DNA from: an uncultured Desulfotomaculum sp.
GTDB taxonomy: Bacteria > Bacillota > Desulfotomaculia > Desulfotomaculales > Desulfotomaculaceae
Direction: 5' to 3'
DNA: 34,236 nt
Assembly: GCA_946411205.1 (NCBI GenBank)
Contig: CAMKDG010000027.1
Span: 1-34,236 of the forward strand
Translations under genes and position numbers: made by a program
The notes under the pieces: model-generated
Seen by the model: the letters and a program-made list of their open reading frames with translations, nothing else
What the model was told of the DNA's origin: nothing
Database searches by the model: none
Part shown: piece by piece, positions 13,106 through 33,954 of the stretch
Numbering within the stretch: the stretch's first letter is position 1
Layout of the letters: each line of letters begins with the position of its first letter

Positions 13106-14410
13106 TTATAATTCTCGCCTATCGATTACTCTTTTGGCTTTCCCTTCACTGCGGGGCAGAGATTTCGGTTCCACCAATTTTATTTTAGCAGAAATGCCCA
13201 ACACACTTAAGATGCGTTCGCGTAATCTTCGCTCTAATACTTCCAAACCAGCTATTTTATCGGAGAACATGTTAGCGGATAATTCCACCTGAATTTCTAA
13301 ATCGTCCAGGGAGGCCTTGCGATCAACTACCAGCAGGTAGTGCGGTTCGGTCTCACCAAACTCCAGTAACACACTTTCGATCTGGGAAGGGAAAACGTTG
13401 ACCCCCCGGATAATGAGCATATCATCGGTACGGCCGGTAATTCTCTCCATCCGCAGATGAGTTCGTCCACATTCACATACTTCCGGGTAGAGGGTAGAGA
13501 TGTCTTTGGTGCGATAACGGATCACCGGGAAGCCTTCCTTGGTCAGGGTGGTGAAGACCAGTTCACCCTTTTCACCATAGGGCAGCGGCTGTTCAGTCAC
13601 CGGGTCGATAATTTCCGGAATAAAATGATCCTCAAAAACATGCAAACCATTCTGACAAGGACACTCCATAGCCACACCAGGCCCTAACACTTCACTGAGA
13701 CCATAGATATCATGGGCTCTAATTCCCAGCTTTTCCTCCAACTGCCGCCGCATATTGTTCGACCAGGGCTCAGCACCAAAAATTCCTACTTTTAAGTGCA
13801 AGGTTCCGAGGTCTACCCCAGCAGCATGAATCTCATCTGCCAAATACAAGGCATACGAAGGGGTACATGTTAAGATAGAGGTTTGAAAATCTTGCATTAA
13901 CATAATTTGACGAGCCGTGTTGCCCCCTGAGATGGGAACAATGGTCGCCCCCAACCGTTCAGCACCATAATGGATGCCTAACCCACCGGTAAATAAACCA
14001 TAGCCATAGGCATTCTGTACCACATCTTCTTTGGTGCCGCCAGCCATCGAAAAGCAGCGGGCTACTAAATCGGACCAAGTATCCAAATCCTTCTTAGTAT
14101 AGCCTACCACAATTGGCTTGCCAGTGGTACCCGAAGAAGCGTGCATCCGCACAATTTCGCTGCGGGGAACGGCAAATAAACCAAAGGGATAGGTATCCCG
14201 CAAGTCTTTTTTGGTAGTAAAGGGTAAGCTTTTTAAATCCTCCAGCGACTTAATATCCCCGGGCGTAATCCCCTTTTCCTGAAAGGCCTGGCGATAAAAA
14301 GGTACCGACGTATACACCCGTTCTACCAATGCTTTTAATCTTTTTGTTTGGATCTCAGCTAACTGATCCCGAGACATGGTTTCATGATGTGCATCCCAAT
14401 AAGAAGTCAT
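13106..14410 (-). CDS. paaK: Phenylacetate-CoA ligase
   Basis: AMP-forming adenylating enzyme that makes arylacetyl-CoA from phenylacetate (or indoleacetate), ATP and CoA. The 434-aa product has the family length and motifs: [14 protein letters not shown], the P-loop [16 protein letters not shown] (about residues 88-103), [47 protein letters not shown] and a C-terminal [20 protein letters not shown]. The ATG at 14410 follows GGGGGTGGAG. The same frame stays open to 14764 but that stretch is the T-box leader. In anaerobes PaaK with indolepyruvate:ferredoxin oxidoreductase can run towards aromatic amino acids, which fits a T-box that turns on when charged tRNA is low. Confidence 0.93.
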
Positions 14411-14456
14411 ATACTCCACCCCCATAATAGTATGTACAGATACTTTGAACAAAAAA

Positions 14457-14504
14457 TCCCCATCCCTATGCAGGGACGGAGATACAATTCCGCGGTACCA
14501 CCCT
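14457..14504 (-). promoter_or_regulatory. T-box module 2: antiterminator and terminator
   Basis: On the minus strand the T-box sequence AGGGTGGTACCGCGG (14490-14504) is followed by a terminator stem (14457-14467 with 14472-14482) and TTTTTT. It lies only about 58 bases behind the first terminator and has no stem I or specifier of its own. The sequence strongly resembles module 1, so it arose by partial duplication. Confidence 0.85.
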
Positions 14505-14561
14505 AATTGGCCCCTTGGGCCCAACTCAAAACAGGTACGGGAAAAGGACGTAACGGTAAAT

Positions 14562-14820
14562 AAAAAAACCTCCATCCACCAAGGGACGGAGAGTATTTTC
14601 CGTGGTACCACCCTAATTGCAAGAGCCACTTTACCGGTACAGGACAAAATCCGATACCTCTCCCTTGTAACGGCGGGACATCCGGCTGCACCTACTGACC
14701 GCTTCAGCACAGCAACTCCGGAGGGAACTTCAATCAGCCATACCTTAAAGAAGCTTCCAGTCACGGCTTCTTTTCCCTGAAAGGCTGGGGAGATTTACTT
14801 TTCTCCATCATCGCATTGAC
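14562..14820 (-). promoter_or_regulatory. T-box riboswitch, module 1 with stem I
   Basis: On the minus strand the leader has a stem I region (GATGGAGAAAAGTAA near 14795-14815, the AG-bulge-like CAGGGA, and a specifier segment GAA-G-TTC-CC at 14721-14731), the T-box sequence AGGGTGGTACCACGG (14600-14614), and a terminator stem (14570-14577 with 14584-14591) followed by seven Ts. In T-boxes the specifier follows GAA plus one base; that makes it UUC (14725-14727), phenylalanine. A shift by one base would read GUU (valine). Uncharged tRNA would pair here and with the T-box bulge to allow transcription of paaK-ACT-cyclo-ligase. Confidence 0.9.
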
Positions 14821-27317: not shown

Positions 27318-27452
27318 ATGTGGATCTATGAAAAGAAATTACAAATCCCGGTTCGAGTTTCTGGACCCAATCCTCGCTTGGCAAAAGAAGTTCTTACACA
27401 ATACGGCGGGCCGGACTTAAACTTTTATAGTCGGGATATGGGGATATTGTGA
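27318..27452 (+). pseudogene. cotJC: 5' fragment of cotJC, interrupted by mobile element
   Basis: The ORF codes for 44 aa. Its first 33 residues (MWIYEKKLQIPVRVSGPNP...LAKEVLTQYGGPD) are the conserved start of CotJC, a manganese-catalase-like coat protein normally near 190 aa. After GGPD the match stops: the expected GEL..RYLNQRY is replaced by 11 unrelated residues and a stop. The next gene is a serine recombinase. The rest of cotJC must lie beyond the right edge of the window if the element is intact. It may be restored by excision, as with sigK and the skin element; that is inference. Confidence 0.85.
27398..27450. other. Candidate attachment site (left junction of element)
   Basis: Weak concentric symmetry marks the cotJC/element boundary: ACAATA (27398-27403) with TATTGT (27445-27450), and CCGGACT with AGTCGG nearer the middle, both centred at about 27423. 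A site of some 50 bp with imperfect dyad symmetry is what large serine recombinases use. The crossover bases cannot be fixed without the right junction. Confidence 0.4.
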
Positions 27453-27516: not shown

Positions 27517-29115
27517 CTAAACAAAGTCTACATCAACTATTTCTCCGTCCCGATCTATGTAAATAGCGTTAAAGTTACTCACTAAATTCACCTTATCTTC
27601 ATGGGGTAAGTCATCTAGCCTGTCTAGTACTACGCTTACTTCTTGAAAGATCTTCATGCACTTCTCCTCGACCATATCTACTTGCCCCAGTTTATTATTC
27701 AAATCATCGATCTGCTTTTGAAGAAAGCTTTTTCCACTTCTTAATTCTTTCATCCGATCCTTATATTCTTCAATGGTGATAATTTCTTCCTCATAAGCTA
27801 CTTGCTGCTTCTTCATAGCCCCAGTATTTTTTTCTAATTTCCCCTTTAATTCCTCTCTCTTTATTACTAACTCATCAAAGTTTCTTGTATAAAGATCCAC
27901 GTTCCTTTTGATGAAAGTGAATAGCCTGTCTTTATCAGAAAATATCGTACCAATGAAAAACAGGAGATTGTGATCTACCTTGTCCATATGCCAATACTTA
28001 ATACCCTCATCACATTTTCCATTATTCCCTGCACAGCGATATCTATATAAATACTCTTTTTTCTTTGGCTTAATTTTATTGTTTCTCTTTTTCTCAATCC
28101 GAGTACCATATATTTTCCCTTTACATACAACACAACGAAGTATACCTGATCCAAGATATTTCTTGTCACAACTCCACTCATGCTTATGTTTCTCAGCTCT
28201 CATTTTCATAAGGGCTTGTATTTTCGCAAACGTTTCTATATTGATTAAGGGTTCATGGGTATTCTCTCGGATGATCCAGTCTTCTTGGGGTCTTATTACC
28301 CTTTTTTGTTTACCCTGGTGATCTCTAACTAAGGCTGTAGCATTATAGATGGTTATTCCTAAATACACGGGATTACTCAATATGGATCTTATCCCATTTG
28401 TGGACCATTTACCTCCACGCCTGGTTGGAATATTGTTATTATTTAACCATTTGGAGATCTTTAATTGACCCCATCCAGCCAAAAATTTATCTATAATCTC
28501 CTGATAAATAGGGGCCGTCCCAGGATTCTTAATTAAATGTTGCCGATCCTCCGACAACATGTACCCAAAGGCGGGCAGAGGTACATTAGTCTTCCCTTCT
28601 TTGGCCTTTAGAACCTGGGTTATTTTCACCCGTGAACTAGTAGTTTTTCGTTCCTTCTGGGCTAGACCCCCGTGGATAATAAGAAGAAATTCATCATCAT
28701 CAATACGGCTATCATAATTTTCTTTAATAGAAAGAAAAAAACCACCATATGCCCCCATAGTTCGTTTTAACTCAAGAATATCCATGATATCTCTAGAGGT
28801 TCTTGAAATCTCCTTTGATACTACCCCTTTAATTACTCCTGTTTTAATATCATTAAACATATCCATCAATTCATTACGTAAGTACATATACTCGCCCGAT
28901 TTAACATCCGTATAAAAACGAACTATGTTATAGCCGTTGATTTCAGCCCACTGTTGGATATATTTCTTTTGATTTTCAATGCTCGTTTTTTGGCTATCCT
29001 TCTTAGTTGATATCCTTAGATAACCACCAATAGGCAGGTTTTTTTCATCTAGTGTTTTCTTAACATCTTTAAAAGTTTCAAACCGCCTATTTGAAATATG
29101 CGGTGGTAAAAACAA
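27517..29115 (-). CDS. Large serine recombinase (integrase/excisionase)
   Basis: A 532-aa site-specific recombinase of the SpoIVCA/phage-integrase type. Residues about 28-165 are the resolvase domain with catalytic S36 in GGYLRIST and SKEISRTSRD. About 178-310 is the Recombinase domain (PLPAFGYML, IPTRRGGKWSTNGIRSILSNPVYLG). A zinc ribbon follows with C328/C331 and C361/C368, then a coiled coil (about 410-490). TTG start at 29115 with GGGGG about 9 nt upstream. Its 3' end faces the broken cotJC 65 bp away, the usual position of an integrase next to its attachment site. It probably both inserted and can excise the element. Confidence 0.93.
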   Translation of the reverse strand: MFLPPHISNRRFETFKDVKKTLDEKNLPIGGYLRISTKKDSQKTSIENQKKYIQQWAEINGYNIVRFYTDVKSGEYMYLRNELMDMFNDIKTGVIKGVVSKEISRTSRDIMDILELKRTMGAYGGFFLSIKENYDSRIDDDEFLLIIHGGLAQKERKTTSSRVKITQVLKAKEGKTNVPLPAFGYMLSEDRQHLIKNPGTAPIYQEIIDKFLAGWGQLKISKWLNNNNIPTRRGGKWSTNGIRSILSNPVYLGITIYNATALVRDHQGKQKRVIRPQEDWIIRENTHEPLINIETFAKIQALMKMRAEKHKHEWSCDKKYLGSGILRCVVCKGKIYGTRIEKKRNNKIKPKKKEYLYRYRCAGNNGKCDEGIKYWHMDKVDHNLLFFIGTIFSDKDRLFTFIKRNVDLYTRNFDELVIKREELKGKLEKNTGAMKKQQVAYEEEIITIEEYKDRMKELRSGKSFLQKQIDDLNNKLGQVDMVEEKCMKIFQEVSVVLDRLDDLPHEDKVNLVSNFNAIYIDRDGEIVDVDFV

Positions 29116-29398: not shown

Positions 29399-29425
29399 AA
29401 ATAAAAATCGCCGACTTAGTCGACG
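29395..29425 (-). terminator. Terminator with stop codon in its loop
   Basis: On the minus strand CGTCGAC-TAA-GTCGGCG (one G-U pair) followed by TTTTTATTTTTT. The loop TAA is the stop codon of the small broken ORF. Confidence 0.7.
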
Positions 29426-29710
29426 AGCCGCATTTCATAAATTTGCAAAACATTTAATTTCGTTCCTCGGTATAAGTTAACACGATCAGCGATGCCGAGT
29501 ACCCATCCTGGGCATTGTTTCCCCTTTAGCTCCATATTTTCTACAGTATCTCTATGCGTAAGTTCATAGTTTTGGCATATCTTTTTATCAATATTTTGAG
29601 ACCAACTTGATATGCCTTCTCTTTAGGACCATACTGCTTGGTTATATCTTTTTATCAATATTTTGAGACCAACCAAAGAACTTGCACGATTGACAGCTTT
29701 TTCTTTTCAT
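29416..29710 (-). pseudogene. Small zinc-finger ORF broken by a 67-bp duplication
   Basis: An ATG at 29710 behind GGAAGGG opens a frame (MKRKSCQSCKFFGWSQNIDKKI) that stops at 29642. A second copy of the WSQNIDKKI sequence at about 29577-29606 continues in another register as CQNYELTHRDTVENM...QCPGWVLG and ends at 29416. Removing one 67-bp unit (a 30-bp direct repeat plus 37 bp) joins the two parts into one 75-aa protein with CxxC, a further C, and CPGW, a likely zinc site. So the gene is either dead or switched by repeat recombination. Function unknown. Confidence 0.65.
29577..29673. repeat. 30-bp perfect direct repeat, 67 bp apart
   Basis: Bases 29577-29606 are identical to 29644-29673 (starting ATATCTTTTTATC, ending GAGACCAAC), with 37 unrelated bases between. 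The two copies split the small zinc-finger ORF. Only two copies exist and nothing else suggests CRISPR. Confidence 0.9.
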
Positions 29711-29756: not shown

Positions 29757-30674
29757 TTAACTTAACTGCATTATCCCTACGCGTCTTCTGCCGGCGGCTG
29801 TTCCTGATGCCTTTGACGGTATTAAATAGGAAGGATCTGGTGCATTGATTTGTACCGCCATTTCTTTCTTTGGTATGCTTCTTGGAAAACCTATTGGTAA
29901 TCCGGGTTTAATTTCATTTGGGCTGTCTTTTTTATAATTCCTAAAAATATAGTCATAATCAACTCTTCCGGTTTCGGGGTTATAACTCATCATATTCCAT
30001 TCTGCCATCCCCATCGCGCTAATCGTATAACACTTACTTCTCTTTTTAGTTGCTGAGGCAGCTCGATTTTTACGTTCTTCCCGGAACGCTTTAGCCATTT
30101 CTTTCTCTTTTTCTCTTTGCTCTTTTTCCAGAGCTGCTTCAGCCGCACGTTGCTGTAATTTGCTCTTTAGATGTGTATATTCTTCAACTGTTAATCCAGC
30201 AATTATTTCTTCTTTACTAATTCTATTTCTAATTTTATCAATTGCCCTACTAACGTTCATGGTAGATTCTTCTAATCTGTCCGCTATACGACTACCCGCC
30301 AGACGAGGATACTCAATAATTACTCTGGCCACCCGTCTAATAAAAGCATCTTTTTCGTGGCTTATATGTCTTAGTCGCAAGTCCAAATTATCTTTTAATT
30401 TTTTATTCTCAGCTTCATTTAGGCCGATTATAATATGCTCTTCACTTAGAGTTTCCGTAATCTTCTTATAGGTAGCTTGAACTTTTTTGGGGTCAATGCC
30501 ACAAAATCCAGCCATTTCGCTTATTGATACAGTAAAGTCATCCATGATCAAACGAGCTACCATTACAACAGTTTCGTTTTTCTTCCTTTTATTTACAAAT
30601 TTGCGTTCCGTTTTGTTATCACTATTCGATTTTTGGGCATACGGGGGACATATGGACTGCTGTTCTGCTTTCAA
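29757..30674 (-). CDS. Unknown 305-aa element protein, HTH-like repeats
   Basis: No family recognised. Two similar helical units, VARLIMDDFTVSISEMAGFCGIDPKKVQATYKKI (about 40-73) and VARVIIEYPRLAGSRIADRLEESTMNVSRAIDKI (about 116-149), look like helix-turn-helix modules. A charged coiled coil (EKEQREKEKEMAKAFREERKNR) and a basic, proline-containing tail follow. This would suit a DNA-binding, replication or partition accessory protein. TTG at 30674 has GGGG 8 nt upstream; GTG at 30683 overlaps that site. It lies behind parB and a hammerhead ribozyme on the same strand. Confidence 0.6.
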   Translation of the reverse strand: MKAEQQSICPPYAQKSNSDNKTERKFVNKRKKNETVVMVARLIMDDFTVSISEMAGFCGIDPKKVQATYKKITETLSEEHIIIGLNEAENKKLKDNLDLRLRHISHEKDAFIRRVARVIIEYPRLAGSRIADRLEESTMNVSRAIDKIRNRISKEEIIAGLTVEEYTHLKSKLQQRAAEAALEKEQREKEKEMAKAFREERKNRAASATKKRSKCYTISAMGMAEWNMMSYNPETGRVDYDYIFRNYKKDSPNEIKPGLPIGFPRSIPKKEMAVQINAPDPSYLIPSKASGTAAGRRRVGIMQLS

Positions 30675-30706
30675 AAAAAGCACCCCATTTCAATAAATTA
30701 TTAGCT

Positions 30707-30776
30707 TCCTACGACCGGCTGGATTAGGTTACAAGCCGGTTTCGCCTGGGCACTACCCAGGACTCATCAGGCAGGA
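30707..30776 (-). ncRNA. Hammerhead ribozyme 2 (parB / 305-aa gene gap)
   Basis: Read on the minus strand: stem I arm UCCUGC (30776-30771), CUGAUGA (30770-30764), stem II G-U-CCUGGG/CCCAGG-C with loop UAGUG and one bulged U, GAAA (30743-30740), stem III CCGGCU/AGCCGG, U and C, predicted cleavage after C30713, then GUAGGA closing stem I. All invariant core bases are present. The stem I-open form is type I. The element begins 2 nt behind the parB stop codon. The bulged U in stem II is the only departure from an ideal fold. Confidence 0.8.
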
Positions 30777-30778
30777 TT

Positions 30779-31627
30779 TTATGAATTTGCTATTAAAATA
30801 TCAATTTGTGCCCGTAGATCCATTAGCTCTTTAACACATTCTTCTCTCTCTTGGACCGGTAGTTTACTCCAATTTTTTTGTAGTTTGGAGAGCTTCTTTA
30901 TGGAACTTCCTATATCGCTGGCCGGGCTTTTTGTGGGTAGTTCCTTAAGGTAGTTTTCGGCCCAGGCCAACGCCTGTTTTCCGGTTAATCCCTCTAGGAG
31001 AATCTCTTGAAAAAGTACTTGTTGAGTATTAGGAACTTTTTTGAGCATTAATAGTGCCCTGGCGTGATTCTCGTTAAGGTCAGCTTTACAAAATGAATTC
31101 AGCATATCCTCTGGTAAATTTAATATGTTGAGTAACTGGTGAACTCTTGTTTTACTAAATCCTAGCTTATTTCCGGCAGCCTCCATACTGAGGCCTTCCC
31201 CCACCATAATCTCCTTAATGGCCATCGCCGTTTCAAAGGCTTTGAGATTACTTCGGTGAAGATTCTCAATTAAGGCAATGGCCCTCTGATCTGCATTACT
31301 GAGAATAACAATACATGGAATCGTTTCCAACCCTGCTTCCGCAGCCGCCCTCCACCTACGCTCTCCAAAGCCGATGATATATTGGAGGGGTATCTCTTGG
31401 TGTTTTCTAACACCGATAGGTTGTATAACACCATATTTTGCAATTGATTGGGCAAGCTCTGTTATCTTTTCAGGGTCAAAATACTTCCTTGGCTGTTTGG
31501 GATCAGGATGTATTGAGTTTAATGGAACTTCTAGGATTCTGGACTGTCTTCTCTCCTGAGTGACACCGGTAGATCCTGGACCACTAACAAACAAACCAAC
31601 TACATTCTCCGTCCCTCGCCCTGTCAT
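30779..31627 (-). CDS. parB: ParB/Spo0J-family partition protein
   Basis: A 282-aa centromere-binding, CTP-dependent clamp protein. Seen: VPLNSIHPDPKQPRKYFDPEKITELAQSIAKYGVIQPI (about 35-72), GFGERRWRAAAEAG (box II, about 86-99), ALIENLHRSNLKAFETA, then a helix-turn-helix GLSMEAAGNKLGFSKTRVHQLLNI and a C-terminal dimerisation part. ATG at 31627, 3 nt behind the parA stop, with AAGGGG upstream. The partner of parA in segregating the element, which suggests a plasmid-like (excised circular) state. Confidence 0.93.
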   Translation of the reverse strand: MTGRGTENVVGLFVSGPGSTGVTQERRQSRILEVPLNSIHPDPKQPRKYFDPEKITELAQSIAKYGVIQPIGVRKHQEIPLQYIIGFGERRWRAAAEAGLETIPCIVILSNADQRAIALIENLHRSNLKAFETAMAIKEIMVGEGLSMEAAGNKLGFSKTRVHQLLNILNLPEDMLNSFCKADLNENHARALLMLKKVPNTQQVLFQEILLEGLTGKQALAWAENYLKELPTKSPASDIGSSIKKLSKLQKNWSKLPVQEREECVKELMDLRAQIDILIANS

Positions 31628-31630
31628 GTA

Positions 31631-32404
31631 TTAAGCCACCCCTTCGTAAATTTTCAGCAGTTCCTCAGCACAACTGCAGTACTCCTTTGCTCCAGTGGAA
31701 TTCCGGTCATATTGAGTTATTACTTGTCCCATACGGACTGCTTCTAAAAGCTTGGCATTTACCCTAATGGCGATTGGCAGCACCTTCTCTCCATACTCTT
31801 TTGTAATGTCCTGCAGCACCCTTTTATCTTCATTCCGCCTATAATCCACCATGGTCGGAAGCACTACCCAACCTGATAGGGAAGGATTAATTTTGGTACG
31901 GACCGTTTTAATCGTTTTTAAGAGTTGATTTAGGCCATTCACCGCAAATGTTTGTGTTTGAACCGGGATAATAACCTGGTTGGCTGCACTTAAGGCGTTA
32001 ATCATCAGTAGTCCCAAGCTCGGTGGTGTGTCAATAAATATGTAATCAAAGTGATCCTGGATATCTCCAAGGCTGGCTCTTAATAATTGCTCCCGTCCAA
32101 TCTCACCAAATAATTCAGCCTCGGCAGCTGCCAGATCGATATGAGAAGGAACAACAAACAAATTAGGGATAGCCGTGGGTTTAATTGCTTCATGTGGCTG
32201 GCACCGATCGGTAATGAAATCGTAGGAGCCCTTTTCCCCTTCACCGAGTACAATATTTACTCCCCGGCTCATGTTGGCCTGGGGGTCCAGATCCACCAGT
32301 AGAACCTTCTTGCCTCGCTCTGCTAAACAAGCTCCCAGGTTGATGGTAGTTGTTGTTTTGCCGGTTCCACCTTTCTGGTTTGCTACGGCTATAATTTGAG
32401 TCAT
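31631..32404 (-). CDS. parA: ParA/Soj-family partition ATPase
   Basis: A 257-aa ATPase that moves ParB-bound DNA. Deviant Walker A KGGTGKTTT (residues 11-19), DLDPQANMSRG (switch), FIDTPPSLGLLMINAL (Walker B region) and PVQTQTFAVNGLNQLL are clear. No N-terminal DNA-binding extension, so it is the short Soj type. I chose ATG 32404, 8 nt behind GGAGG; the ATG at 32419 contains that site. A hammerhead ribozyme lies 28 bp upstream, so the mature 5' end of the parA mRNA would be at 32436. Confidence 0.95.
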   Translation of the reverse strand: MTQIIAVANQKGGTGKTTTTINLGACLAERGKKVLLVDLDPQANMSRGVNIVLGEGEKGSYDFITDRCQPHEAIKPTAIPNLFVVPSHIDLAAAEAELFGEIGREQLLRASLGDIQDHFDYIFIDTPPSLGLLMINALSAANQVIIPVQTQTFAVNGLNQLLKTIKTVRTKINPSLSGWVVLPTMVDYRRNEDKRVLQDITKEYGEKVLPIAIRVNAKLLEAVRMGQVITQYDRNSTGAKEYCSCAEELLKIYEGVA

Positions 32405-32431
32405 CTTTGACACCTCCATAAAAACTTTTAA

Positions 32432-32486
32432 TCCCAGACGGTGGCTGCTTGGCCACCGTTTCGTCCTTCGGGACTCATCAGTGGAA
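32432..32486 (-). ncRNA. Hammerhead ribozyme 1 (upstream of parA)
   Basis: Read on the minus strand: stem I arm UUCCA (32486-32482), CUGAUGA (32481-32475), stem II GUCC-CGAA-GGAC (32474-32463), GAAA (32462-32459), stem III CGGUGGC/GCCACCG (32458-32439), U and C, cleavage after C32437, then UGGGA (32436-32432) closing stem I with one G-U. Every invariant hammerhead base is present and stem II is canonical. Stem I is the open stem (type I topology). It begins 2 nt behind the stop of the zinc-ribbon gene and precedes parA. Confidence 0.9.
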
Positions 32487-32488
32487 GA

Positions 32489-32647
32489 TTATTTAATCCG
32501 AGCATTCTTACAATCCAAGCACATTCCGTTGACCTTGTAATATTCGTAAATTTTGGGTTCAAGCCAGATCCTTTTGTAGCACTTTGAGCAAGTAAAAGCT
32601 ATAAGACCGGGTTTATATTCATTCACAAATCCCGTGTTGGCATCCAT
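32489..32647 (-). CDS. 52-aa zinc-ribbon protein
   Basis: A small protein with two cysteine knuckles, CSKC (residues 20-23) and CLDC (43-46), separated by a 19-residue segment KRIWLEPKIYEYYKVNG: a compact zinc ribbon. No family name. ATG 32647 has GGGAGGGG 9 nt upstream. It is the first gene of the zinc-ribbon/parA/parB/305-aa series and is separated from parA by hammerhead ribozyme 1, so it would be released as its own message. Confidence 0.75.
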   Translation of the reverse strand: MDANTGFVNEYKPGLIAFTCSKCYKRIWLEPKIYEYYKVNGMCLDCKNARIK

Positions 32648-33076: not shown

Positions 33077-33292
33077 CTAGTCCGGCCAGACCTCTTCAAC
33101 CTTTTTTCCAATGGCTGCAGCAATAATTGGTCTGATACGGTGTCCTTTGTATTTGGCCTTGTCACTTATAGCCATGCTTACCGCTTCACTGGTAACACCT
33201 GCCACTTTGGCAATGTCTTTAATTTGGACACCACGTTTTATTAATTCTGCTCTAATTTCATTAGGGGTCATGCCTTTTTTCTCTTTTTTCAA
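33077..33292 (-). CDS. Small HTH regulator, Ner/Nlp-like
   Basis: A 71-aa DNA-binding protein. TPNEIRAELIKRGVQIKDIAKVAGVTSEAVSMAISDKAK is a lambda-repressor-like helix-turn-helix, followed by RIRPIIAAAIGKKVEEVWPD, the typical end of phage Ner/Nlp regulators. TTG at 33292 lies 7 nt behind GGGGGG; GTG at 33298 is too close to it. Divergent from an XRE-type gene, the layout of a phage-style control switch. Confidence 0.8.
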   Translation of the reverse strand: MKKEKKGMTPNEIRAELIKRGVQIKDIAKVAGVTSEAVSMAISDKAKYKGHRIRPIIAAAIGKKVEEVWPD

Positions 33293-33441
33293 TTGCACAC
33301 CCCCCTACCTAAATACTAAGGCAATAAATATTTTTAAAGCATATTTTTATTGGTTGTTATTTAGATAATATTTTATAGAAATATATTATTATTTCTCAGA
33401 CATGATGTCAATGAAAATTTTATTTTCTTGGGAGTTCTATT

Positions 33442-33954
33442 ATGGTTTCATTAGGAGAAAGAATCAAAAGCATAAGAATTAATAATAAATTAACCCAATC
33501 AGAATTTGGGGATTTACTAGGTGTTGGACAGAGTCATATCGCTAATATTGAGAAGGATCAAAAGACACCTTCCGACATATTTATTAAAGTCCTTAGCCTT
33601 CAATTTGGCATTCGTGAAGAATGGCTTTGCAGTGGTGAAGAACCAATGTACCGGCCTGTAGAAGAAGTTGTAGAAGAAACCCTGGGGCGATACGGGATAG
33701 ATTTTGTTCGTGTTGCTATAGAAAAAGCAAAGGCCAGAGGCCTCTATGGAGACCTCCAGCCGAAGGCTATAATTCCTGTGGAAGATATTGAATTAGGCCA
33801 AATGGTAAGCTACCTAACTGATACCTGGAAGAACGGAGACCAGCGAATCAAAATCTGGCTCAGTATACAGTTTGAGAAATCATTCCCCGAATTTAATGAA
33901 TACCTACAAAAAAACAGGAAACAAATTACAGGAAGCACTGGCAATGGGGCTTAG
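33442..33954 (+). CDS. XRE-family repressor-like regulator
   Basis: A 170-aa protein. Residues 1-65 are an XRE helix-turn-helix (LGERIKSIRINNKLTQSEFGDLLGVGQSHIANIEKDQKTPS) with the REEWLCSGEEPMY motif common to phage repressors. The remainder has no recognised protease or peptidase site. ATG with GGGAG 7 nt upstream. Divergent from the Ner-like gene across an A+T-rich 149-bp gap that should hold their promoters. Confidence 0.85.
   Translation: MVSLGERIKSIRINNKLTQSEFGDLLGVGQSHIANIEKDQKTPSDIFIKVLSLQFGIREEWLCSGEEPMYRPVEEVVEETLGRYGIDFVRVAIEKAKARGLYGDLQPKAIIPVEDIELGQMVSYLTDTWKNGDQRIKIWLSIQFEKSFPEFNEYLQKNRKQITGSTGNGA

Follow-up and report, generated by a model that had tools for sequence, protein, structure and literature searches.

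Introduction

Hammerhead ribozymes that occur in close proximity on prophages flank single genes or short blocks of genes, and mRNAs of operon or gene length have been proposed as their products (Perreault et al., 2011; PMC3088659). According to the same report, three tandem hammerhead sets cleaved in vitro on ~2-kb fragments or native RNAs, and a triple set from A. tumefaciens was active in E. coli (PMC3088659). What hammerheads do in bacteria has been described as an open question (PMC6155905). Here, we describe two putative type I hammerheads at gene junctions of an integrated mobile element in a 34,236-nt stretch of DNA from an uncultured Desulfotomaculum sp. (contig CAMKDG010000027.1, assembly GCA_946411205.1). 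This whole 34-kb stretch is referred to as the window, and positions without a locus name are positions in it. The two motifs stand on either side of a parA-parB gene pair, and an earlier sequence-only reading had taken them for the built-in parts of a partition system. In our analysis, they are probably ribozymes that process one transcript of the element into three mRNAs, and the hammerhead behind parB follows the gene family of the 305-aa protein encoded downstream of it.

Results

Two Type I Hammerheads at Gene Junctions

A descriptor scan of the window for hammerheads of types I, II, and III returned exactly two, both of type I and both on the coding (minus) strand. Hammerhead 1 lies in the gap ahead of parA and hammerhead 2 in the gap behind parB, and the scan found none in the gap between parA and parB. 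This is the placement given by the sequence-only reading, and the cleavage sites predicted by the scan are identical to the positions it had named (Table 1). The same scan of 60 dinucleotide shuffles of the window (2.05 Mb) gave one type I match, so that about 0.02 would be expected by chance in the window. Both motifs contain the core CUGANGA...GAAA...NUH with closing pairs beside it. Hammerhead 1 is composed of stem I AATC(TT)CCA/TGGGATT, core CTGATGA, stem II GTCC-CGAA-GGAC, core GAAA, an 8-bp stem III, and GTC; hammerhead 2 of stem I TCCTGC/GTAGGA, core CTGATGA, a stem II with a bulged U, core GAAA, stem III, and GTC. Three stems, with stem I open, form the minimum-energy fold of both motifs (z-scores of -2.5 for hammerhead 1 and -2.9 for hammerhead 2). 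Among Rfam models, RF00163 scored hammerhead 1 at 31.8 bits (cut-off 34; E 6.4e-5), and RF03152 (RAGATH-1) scored hammerheads 1 and 2 at 32.7 and 32.0 bits (cut-off 56.3; E 0.016 and 0.023).

The surrounding signals are consistent with a common transcript. Between 32647 and 29757 on the minus strand there is no strong terminator-like signal and one weak match, which lies in parA. No promoter-like site is listed between 32437 and 32841, and the nearest such sites upstream of parA precede the zinc-ribbon-like open reading frame (ORF). These sites are consensus matches only, and they are only somewhat above the shuffle level (27 vs. 18.5, standard deviation 4.3).

Table 1. Features of the element and its insertion site, with positions in the window.
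Feature	Position	Strand	Remarks
Divergent HTH_3/HTH_19 repressor-like gene	33442..33954	+	Pfam match
HTH_35 regulator	33077..33298	-	Upstream of the gene series; Pfam match
Zinc-ribbon-like ORF, 52 aa	32489..32647	-	CxxC...CxxC; stop codon overlaps 5' strand of hammerhead 1 stem I
Hammerhead 1, type I	32430..32490	-	Descriptor scan; predicted cut between 32437 and 32436
parA, 257 aa	31631..32404	-	AAA_31, E 6e-63; Shine-Dalgarno sequence GGAGGTG; 32-nt leader after predicted cut 1
parB, 282 aa	30779..31627	-	ParB_N, E 1.9e-26; HTH_ParB, E 1.3e-14; stop codon starts 11 nt before hammerhead 2 core
Hammerhead 2, type I	30705..30783	-	Descriptor scan; predicted cut between 30713 and 30712
305-aa protein	29757..30674	-	TTG start at 30674; 38-nt leader after predicted cut 2
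First strong terminator-like hairpin after the four genes	29408..29426	-	Consensus match only
Large serine recombinase of the element	27517..29115	-	Resolvase, E 6.7e-28; Recombinase, E 3.4e-25
Mn-catalase gene, 5' fragment (first 33 codons)	27318..27416	+	Abutted by the recombinase; interrupted by the element

The Hammerhead 2 Class

Structure, conservation, and covariation are all observed in the class to which hammerhead 2 belongs. In a plain MAFFT alignment of hammerhead 2 with six relatives, 91% of the cells were paired, compared to 26-39% when the 3' partners were slid, and 12 cells were changed on both sides vs. 4.3 in shuffles, which places the count above all 500 of them. An alignment also showed conserved bases 3' of stem I. 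Model R1 was built from the same seven sequences. Fitted to it, 34 matches (a set different from the 34 rows of the stop-codon tests below) were again 91% paired, with changes on both sides in 15 of 19 pairs and a covariation score of 0.469 vs. at most 0.106 when slid; an alignment fitted in this way leans toward the structure of the model. R1 matches were present in 16 of the 113 genomes of the order, 12 with the strict core, and in 16 of 398 genomes of the phylum, 13 with the strict core (strict-core rows were assigned to genomes by us); the class-level genome set is the same 113 genomes as the order. RF00163, which like R1 was run genome-wide (RF03152 was scored on the window only), had a match in one of the 113 genomes, the window's own, and did not report hammerhead 2. 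Since RF00163 finds one of the 16 R1-matched genomes, such junctions are probably undercounted by it. The strict core CTGANGA...GAAA was kept in 29 of the 40 matches examined. Several co-directional matches can occur per locus, with three at locus L049 and two each at L052 and L013. The three at L049 (5911-8638, minus strand) lie within 2.7 kb, and the same contig has parAB at 37.7 kb. R1 matches at L059 (genome G063) lack the core and were discarded as hammerheads.

Hammerhead 2 Tracks the 305-aa Gene Family

Searches for the 305-aa protein covered 113 genomes from the order, 398 from the phylum, and the genome contig collection. Ten clear members (E 1.6e-52 or better) were found, in the window and at L011, L012, L013, L014, L016, L023, L051, L053, and L054, where L023 and L051 share one genome and L053 and L054 another; six of the ten built the search profile. 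A hammerhead lies upstream of nine of these ten members, with the strict core in eight of the nine and one changed core base at L051. The predicted cut falls ~27-46 nt before the start codon of the 305-aa gene except at L013, where a transposase-bearing insert separates the two. Hence hammerhead 2 tracks this gene family. Weak partial matches (G025, G028 contig C21, G038, and G470; E 3e-5 to 3e-4) were left out of the family count, and the scan found no hammerhead at their loci. No relative of the protein was found in plasmid and phage collections, and none was confirmed in viral-contig scans with ParB and the 305-aa protein.

At the E limits applied, searches of Pfam, NCBIfam, and PHROGs returned nothing for the 305-aa protein itself. 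By eye, it contains two repeated helix-turn-helix-like units and a GRRRxG motif near the C-terminus. Structure prediction (two sequences) gave a predicted local distance difference test score of 50.5 and a predicted template modeling score of 0.22, and a profile search of PDB returned seven matches up to E 1, the best of which (E 7e-6) is an entry named CAP repeat. At L013, the minus strand has two near-identical hammerheads (11719 and 11204; 515 nt apart) with similar downstream leaders. The first precedes a 54-aa ORF and the second the 305-aa gene, with the insert in between; at the second, a four-codon ORF with a ribosome site ends (by eye).

Gene Order Around parA in Relatives

parA was searched in the 113 genomes of the order and matched in 96, and the 30 loci returned were inspected with 1.5-kb flanks. 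An adjacent hammerhead was present at two, those of the window and G058, and hammerheads on both sides at the window only. Flanks of this length extend little past parB, so that a more distant hammerhead in G057 fell outside the view. Relatives with the 305-aa gene differ in order from the window: at L016 and L023 the hammerhead precedes the 305-aa gene, and the start of parA is 6-7 kb farther downstream of this gene; at L013 the hammerhead is followed by the insert, the 305-aa gene, parA, and parB in turn; and at L011 other ORFs intervene between parB and the hammerhead. The order parB, hammerhead, 305-aa gene is repeated at L012 only. When the window's ParB was compared with plasmids, all 1457 records were below 60% identity, and the 3-kb segment of the window gave two short parA matches only. 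Regular-expression hammerheads near parA at L120 and L126 were rejected as chance matches, being similar to each other and both upstream of a parA, with short stems, long loops, and no R1 match. The partition arrangement is a one-off among the loci inspected, and from the gene order of the relatives together with the 30 parA loci we reject hammerheads as a conserved parAB device. The search for parAB flanked by hammerheads elsewhere, by which the sequence-only reading was to be checked, thus returned none but the window among these loci.

For hammerhead 1, the sole relative found is at L011 (3813-3892), with 55 of 75 window bases identical. It lies beside what by eye looks like a decayed zinc-ribbon tail, ahead of a hydrophobic 114-aa ORF, and not beside parA, since the parA of L011 has no hammerhead upstream. 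Among 13 zinc-ribbon matches in the order, a descriptor hammerhead occurs within 1.5 kb at the window only; in G056, an R1 match with one changed core base is located ~500 nt downstream of a zinc-ribbon match. Hammerhead 1 perhaps goes with the zinc-ribbon tail.

Stop Codons Upstream of the Hammerheads

Both window hammerheads follow a stop codon, at -10 and -11 relative to the core, and the hammerhead 2 class is often placed against an upstream stop codon. In a first test, 34 of 38 matches were kept (L047, L051, L077, and L086 were dropped, and two L059 matches were outside the list) under a core rule that tolerated C for U at one position as well as extra bases. In 17 of these rows, vs. 2.0 at random positions, an ORF of 40 aa or more had its stop at -16 to +2, and in 12 vs. 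0.7 an ORF of 80 aa ended there. With a similar core rule, ORFs led by a Shine-Dalgarno sequence ended in this interval in 19 of 34 rows, and three of the 19 ORFs have 24 codons or fewer; over 100 draws, the average was 2.7 and the highest count 6. A strict test used the 29 of 40 matches with the core CTGANGA...GAAA and, as null, positions within 150 nt downstream of stops. It gave 13 vs. 8.7 expected for ORFs of 40 aa, 11 vs. 5.0 for 60 aa, 9 vs. 3.1 for 80 aa, and 10 vs. 2.9 for Shine-Dalgarno-led ORFs of 60 aa. The excess is therefore two- to three-fold under the strict null rather than eight-fold, with related rows included, and the ORFs in these tests are mechanical calls. At three loci, L082, L083, and L081, the core UGA (near 1501) doubles as the stop codon of upstream ORFs of 83, 98, and 109 aa, which end in ...TPA, ...NPA, and ...LPA, respectively; the core at L081 has an extra base.

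The Gene Series and the Mobile Element

On the minus strand, the genes run in the order HTH_35 gene, a gap of ~430 nt, zinc-ribbon-like ORF, parA, parB, 305-aa ORF, and serine recombinase. The order and strand of the four central genes match the ORF and family searches, as the sequence-only reading had them. No gene of at least 70 aa is listed in the 430-nt stretch, and a repeat search found no iteron-like array in the non-coding stretch upstream of the zinc-ribbon-like ORF. The zinc-ribbon label was given for the CxxC...CxxC pattern alone; the ORF had no match in Pfam or NCBIfam, and in PHROGs it matched one family of unknown function (E 0.025). parA and parB are 3 nt apart. Their products look ordinary by sequence, and a ParA ATPase with a ParB that has ParB_N and HTH domains would make up a ParABS protein set. 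With up to three mismatches to the palindrome that we take to be the Spo0J-type parS pattern, zero matches were found in the window, which holds the element only in part, and ParB may read another site. The series is headed by the HTH_3/HTH_19 gene and the divergent HTH_35 gene, which look like a lysogeny-type switch.

The hammerheads lie on an integrated element, which carries the serine recombinase and splits a Mn-catalase gene (presumably cotJC-like). The rest of this gene is on another contig of the same genome (G000:C62:3313-3777), and an 11-bp string, GGCGGGCCGGA, at 27405-27415 recurs at that other fragment. In G058 and G034, inserts of ~68 and ~65 kb, respectively, interrupt the Mn-catalase gene near the same position. 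The G058 insert includes a type IV coupling protein, none of which was found in the window's own assembly; by analogy with G058, the window's element may be conjugative. The parA of the G034 element (G034:C1:2601465-2602208) is reported with one internal TGA.

Elsewhere in the window, a strong Rfam match to BsrG (143 bits) occurs at 1383-1641 on the plus strand, upstream of a GroEL-like ORF region; it is far from the element, and the name may not fit the setting. A T-box leader (14579-14820, minus strand; 113.8 bits) overlaps the start of a 552-aa ORF (13106-14764), which we take to encode an AMP-forming ligase.

Discussion

The observations are best explained by intercistronic processing, in which two type I hammerheads on an integrated mobile element divide one transcript into three mRNAs, and we regard this as probable. 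A transcript that begins ahead of the zinc-ribbon-like ORF and extends through the 305-aa gene would undergo two self-cleavages. The zinc-ribbon and parAB RNAs would each end in hammerhead hairpins with a 2',3'-cyclic phosphate, and the parAB and 305-aa RNAs would start with a 5'-hydroxyl group and a leader of 32 or 38 nt containing the ribosome site. The hammerheads would go with their neighboring genes, hammerhead 2 with the 305-aa family and hammerhead 1 perhaps with the zinc-ribbon tail; parAB would be isolated because it is located between the two ribozyme-bearing junctions. Cleavage of a cotranscript into three RNAs is plausible given two intact, co-directional hammerheads and the pattern of terminator- and promoter-like signals. 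To this extent the interpretation offered by the sequence-only reading holds, whereas its partition-system design is not supported: hammerhead 2 follows the 305-aa family, and one of 30 parA loci is bracketed. From the sequence we infer that the genes are cotranscribed, that cleavage occurs in the cell, and that it may affect mRNA amounts.

Several observations weigh against intercistronic processing. Neither window hammerhead reaches an Rfam gathering score, which is a curation threshold and not a structural feature. In the seven-sequence alignment, the number of pairs with double changes (5) was matched by 61 of 500 shuffles and the number of further pair types (9) by 296 of 500. The centroid fold of hammerhead 1 is without stem I, and its support comes from one relative only (no class model was searched, and further copies may exist), the minimum fold of which pairs across the cleavage site with an unexceptional z-score of -1.5. 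The hammerhead is absent at L014, a member of the 305-aa family. Transcription could also begin inside hammerhead 2, from a promoter-like site at 30804-30776. Lastly, among consensus hammerheads tested in vitro by others, 14 of 18 were active and 4 of 18 inactive (PMC3088659).

The same cleavage could also serve negative control as in glmS, with the 5'-hydroxylated RNA removed by RNase J and expression of parA and the 305-aa gene lowered by the hammerheads. RNase J1 is the nuclease that degrades the glmS product with its 5'-hydroxyl end in B. subtilis (PMC11780869, citing earlier work). A single gene of the RNase J family scores above cut-off in the genome of the window (678 bits), so that cutting may lower the downstream message besides separating it. 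The retention of hammerhead 2 ahead of the 305-aa gene in relatives would fit such control; however, it is difficult to see why a partition message would be destroyed constitutively, and no effector or cleavage control is known here. We consider this explanation possible but doubtful. It is improbable that the hammerheads are passengers, i.e., relics or selfish parts of the element with no role in the expression of these genes. Their gene neighbors do vary outside the 305-aa family, the relative of hammerhead 1 has a decayed-looking neighbor, and the strict core is lost in 11 of 40 matches, including that of the 305-aa member L051, but pairing is strongly constrained across divergent copies and the 305-aa family is a recurrent partner.

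The positions of stop codons raise a further possibility, that a ribosome terminating at a stop codon flush with or overlapping stem I delays cleavage for as long as the upstream gene is translated. Given the size of a ribosome footprint, the terminating ribosome would cover the 5' strand of stem I and part of CUGANGA. The stops upstream of both window hammerheads, the excess of stops over random positions, and the double use of the core UGA would all agree with this. In contrast, the excess shrinks under the strict core and the near-stop null, which lowers the odds of a translation switch, and compact gene packing could produce it; we judge such a switch unlikely. Quite unlikely is its fuller form, a ligand-free, translation-gated switch in which the ribozyme is built into the end of the upstream frame, sometimes with the core UGA as stop codon, and cleavage reports that upstream translation has ended, here at both ends of the parAB message. 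Finally, we find it very unlikely that the hammerheads were selected because they provide parAB with mRNA ends and a dose of its own. The geometry of the window and the order parB, hammerhead, 305-aa gene at L012 speak for such selection; against it, adjacent hammerheads are rare at the parA loci inspected, and at L013, L016, and L023 the hammerhead precedes the 305-aa gene and has no parAB next to it.

The proposed intercistronic processing at this locus has parallels among described systems. As with the prophage hammerheads of Perreault et al. (2011; PMC3088659), two co-directional hammerheads flank genes on an integrated element, and the segmentation of mobile-element transcripts by hammerheads is, according to that work, already known. 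The window differs from it in gene content, namely parAB and the 305-aa family, and in the main text of that paper a word search finds "stop codon" and "partition" zero times. The sequence-only reading knew of no partition system built this way; hammerheads and a ParB or partition pair were indeed not joined among the literature matches listed, in a search with most subscription literature outside its scope, but the principle of processing is in print (PMC3088659). The splitting of the Mn-catalase gene in three genomes resembles the intervening elements of sporulation genes described in Bacillus (PMC5595907).

RAGATH motifs are RNAs near genes that also neighbor twister and hammerhead ribozymes. 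Both window motifs match RF03152 (RAGATH-1) over the whole model, yet below its gathering score; with RF00163 (Hammerhead_1) they have the type I topology in common, and hammerhead 1 is below the cut-off. The glmS ribozyme, as described in B. subtilis, is likewise a self-cleaving RNA in an mRNA leader that leaves a 5'-hydroxyl group on the downstream RNA. Its fold and cofactor dependence differ from those of the hammerhead, and no cofactor is known for the window hammerheads. Compared with these systems, stop-codon placement is a possible new property of hammerheads, and the gene partner (the 305-aa family) together with this stop-adjacent position would provide a testable handle on the role of hammerheads in bacteria. 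What is new here is the detection by R1 of a hammerhead class in 16 of the 113 genomes of the order vs. one for RF00163.

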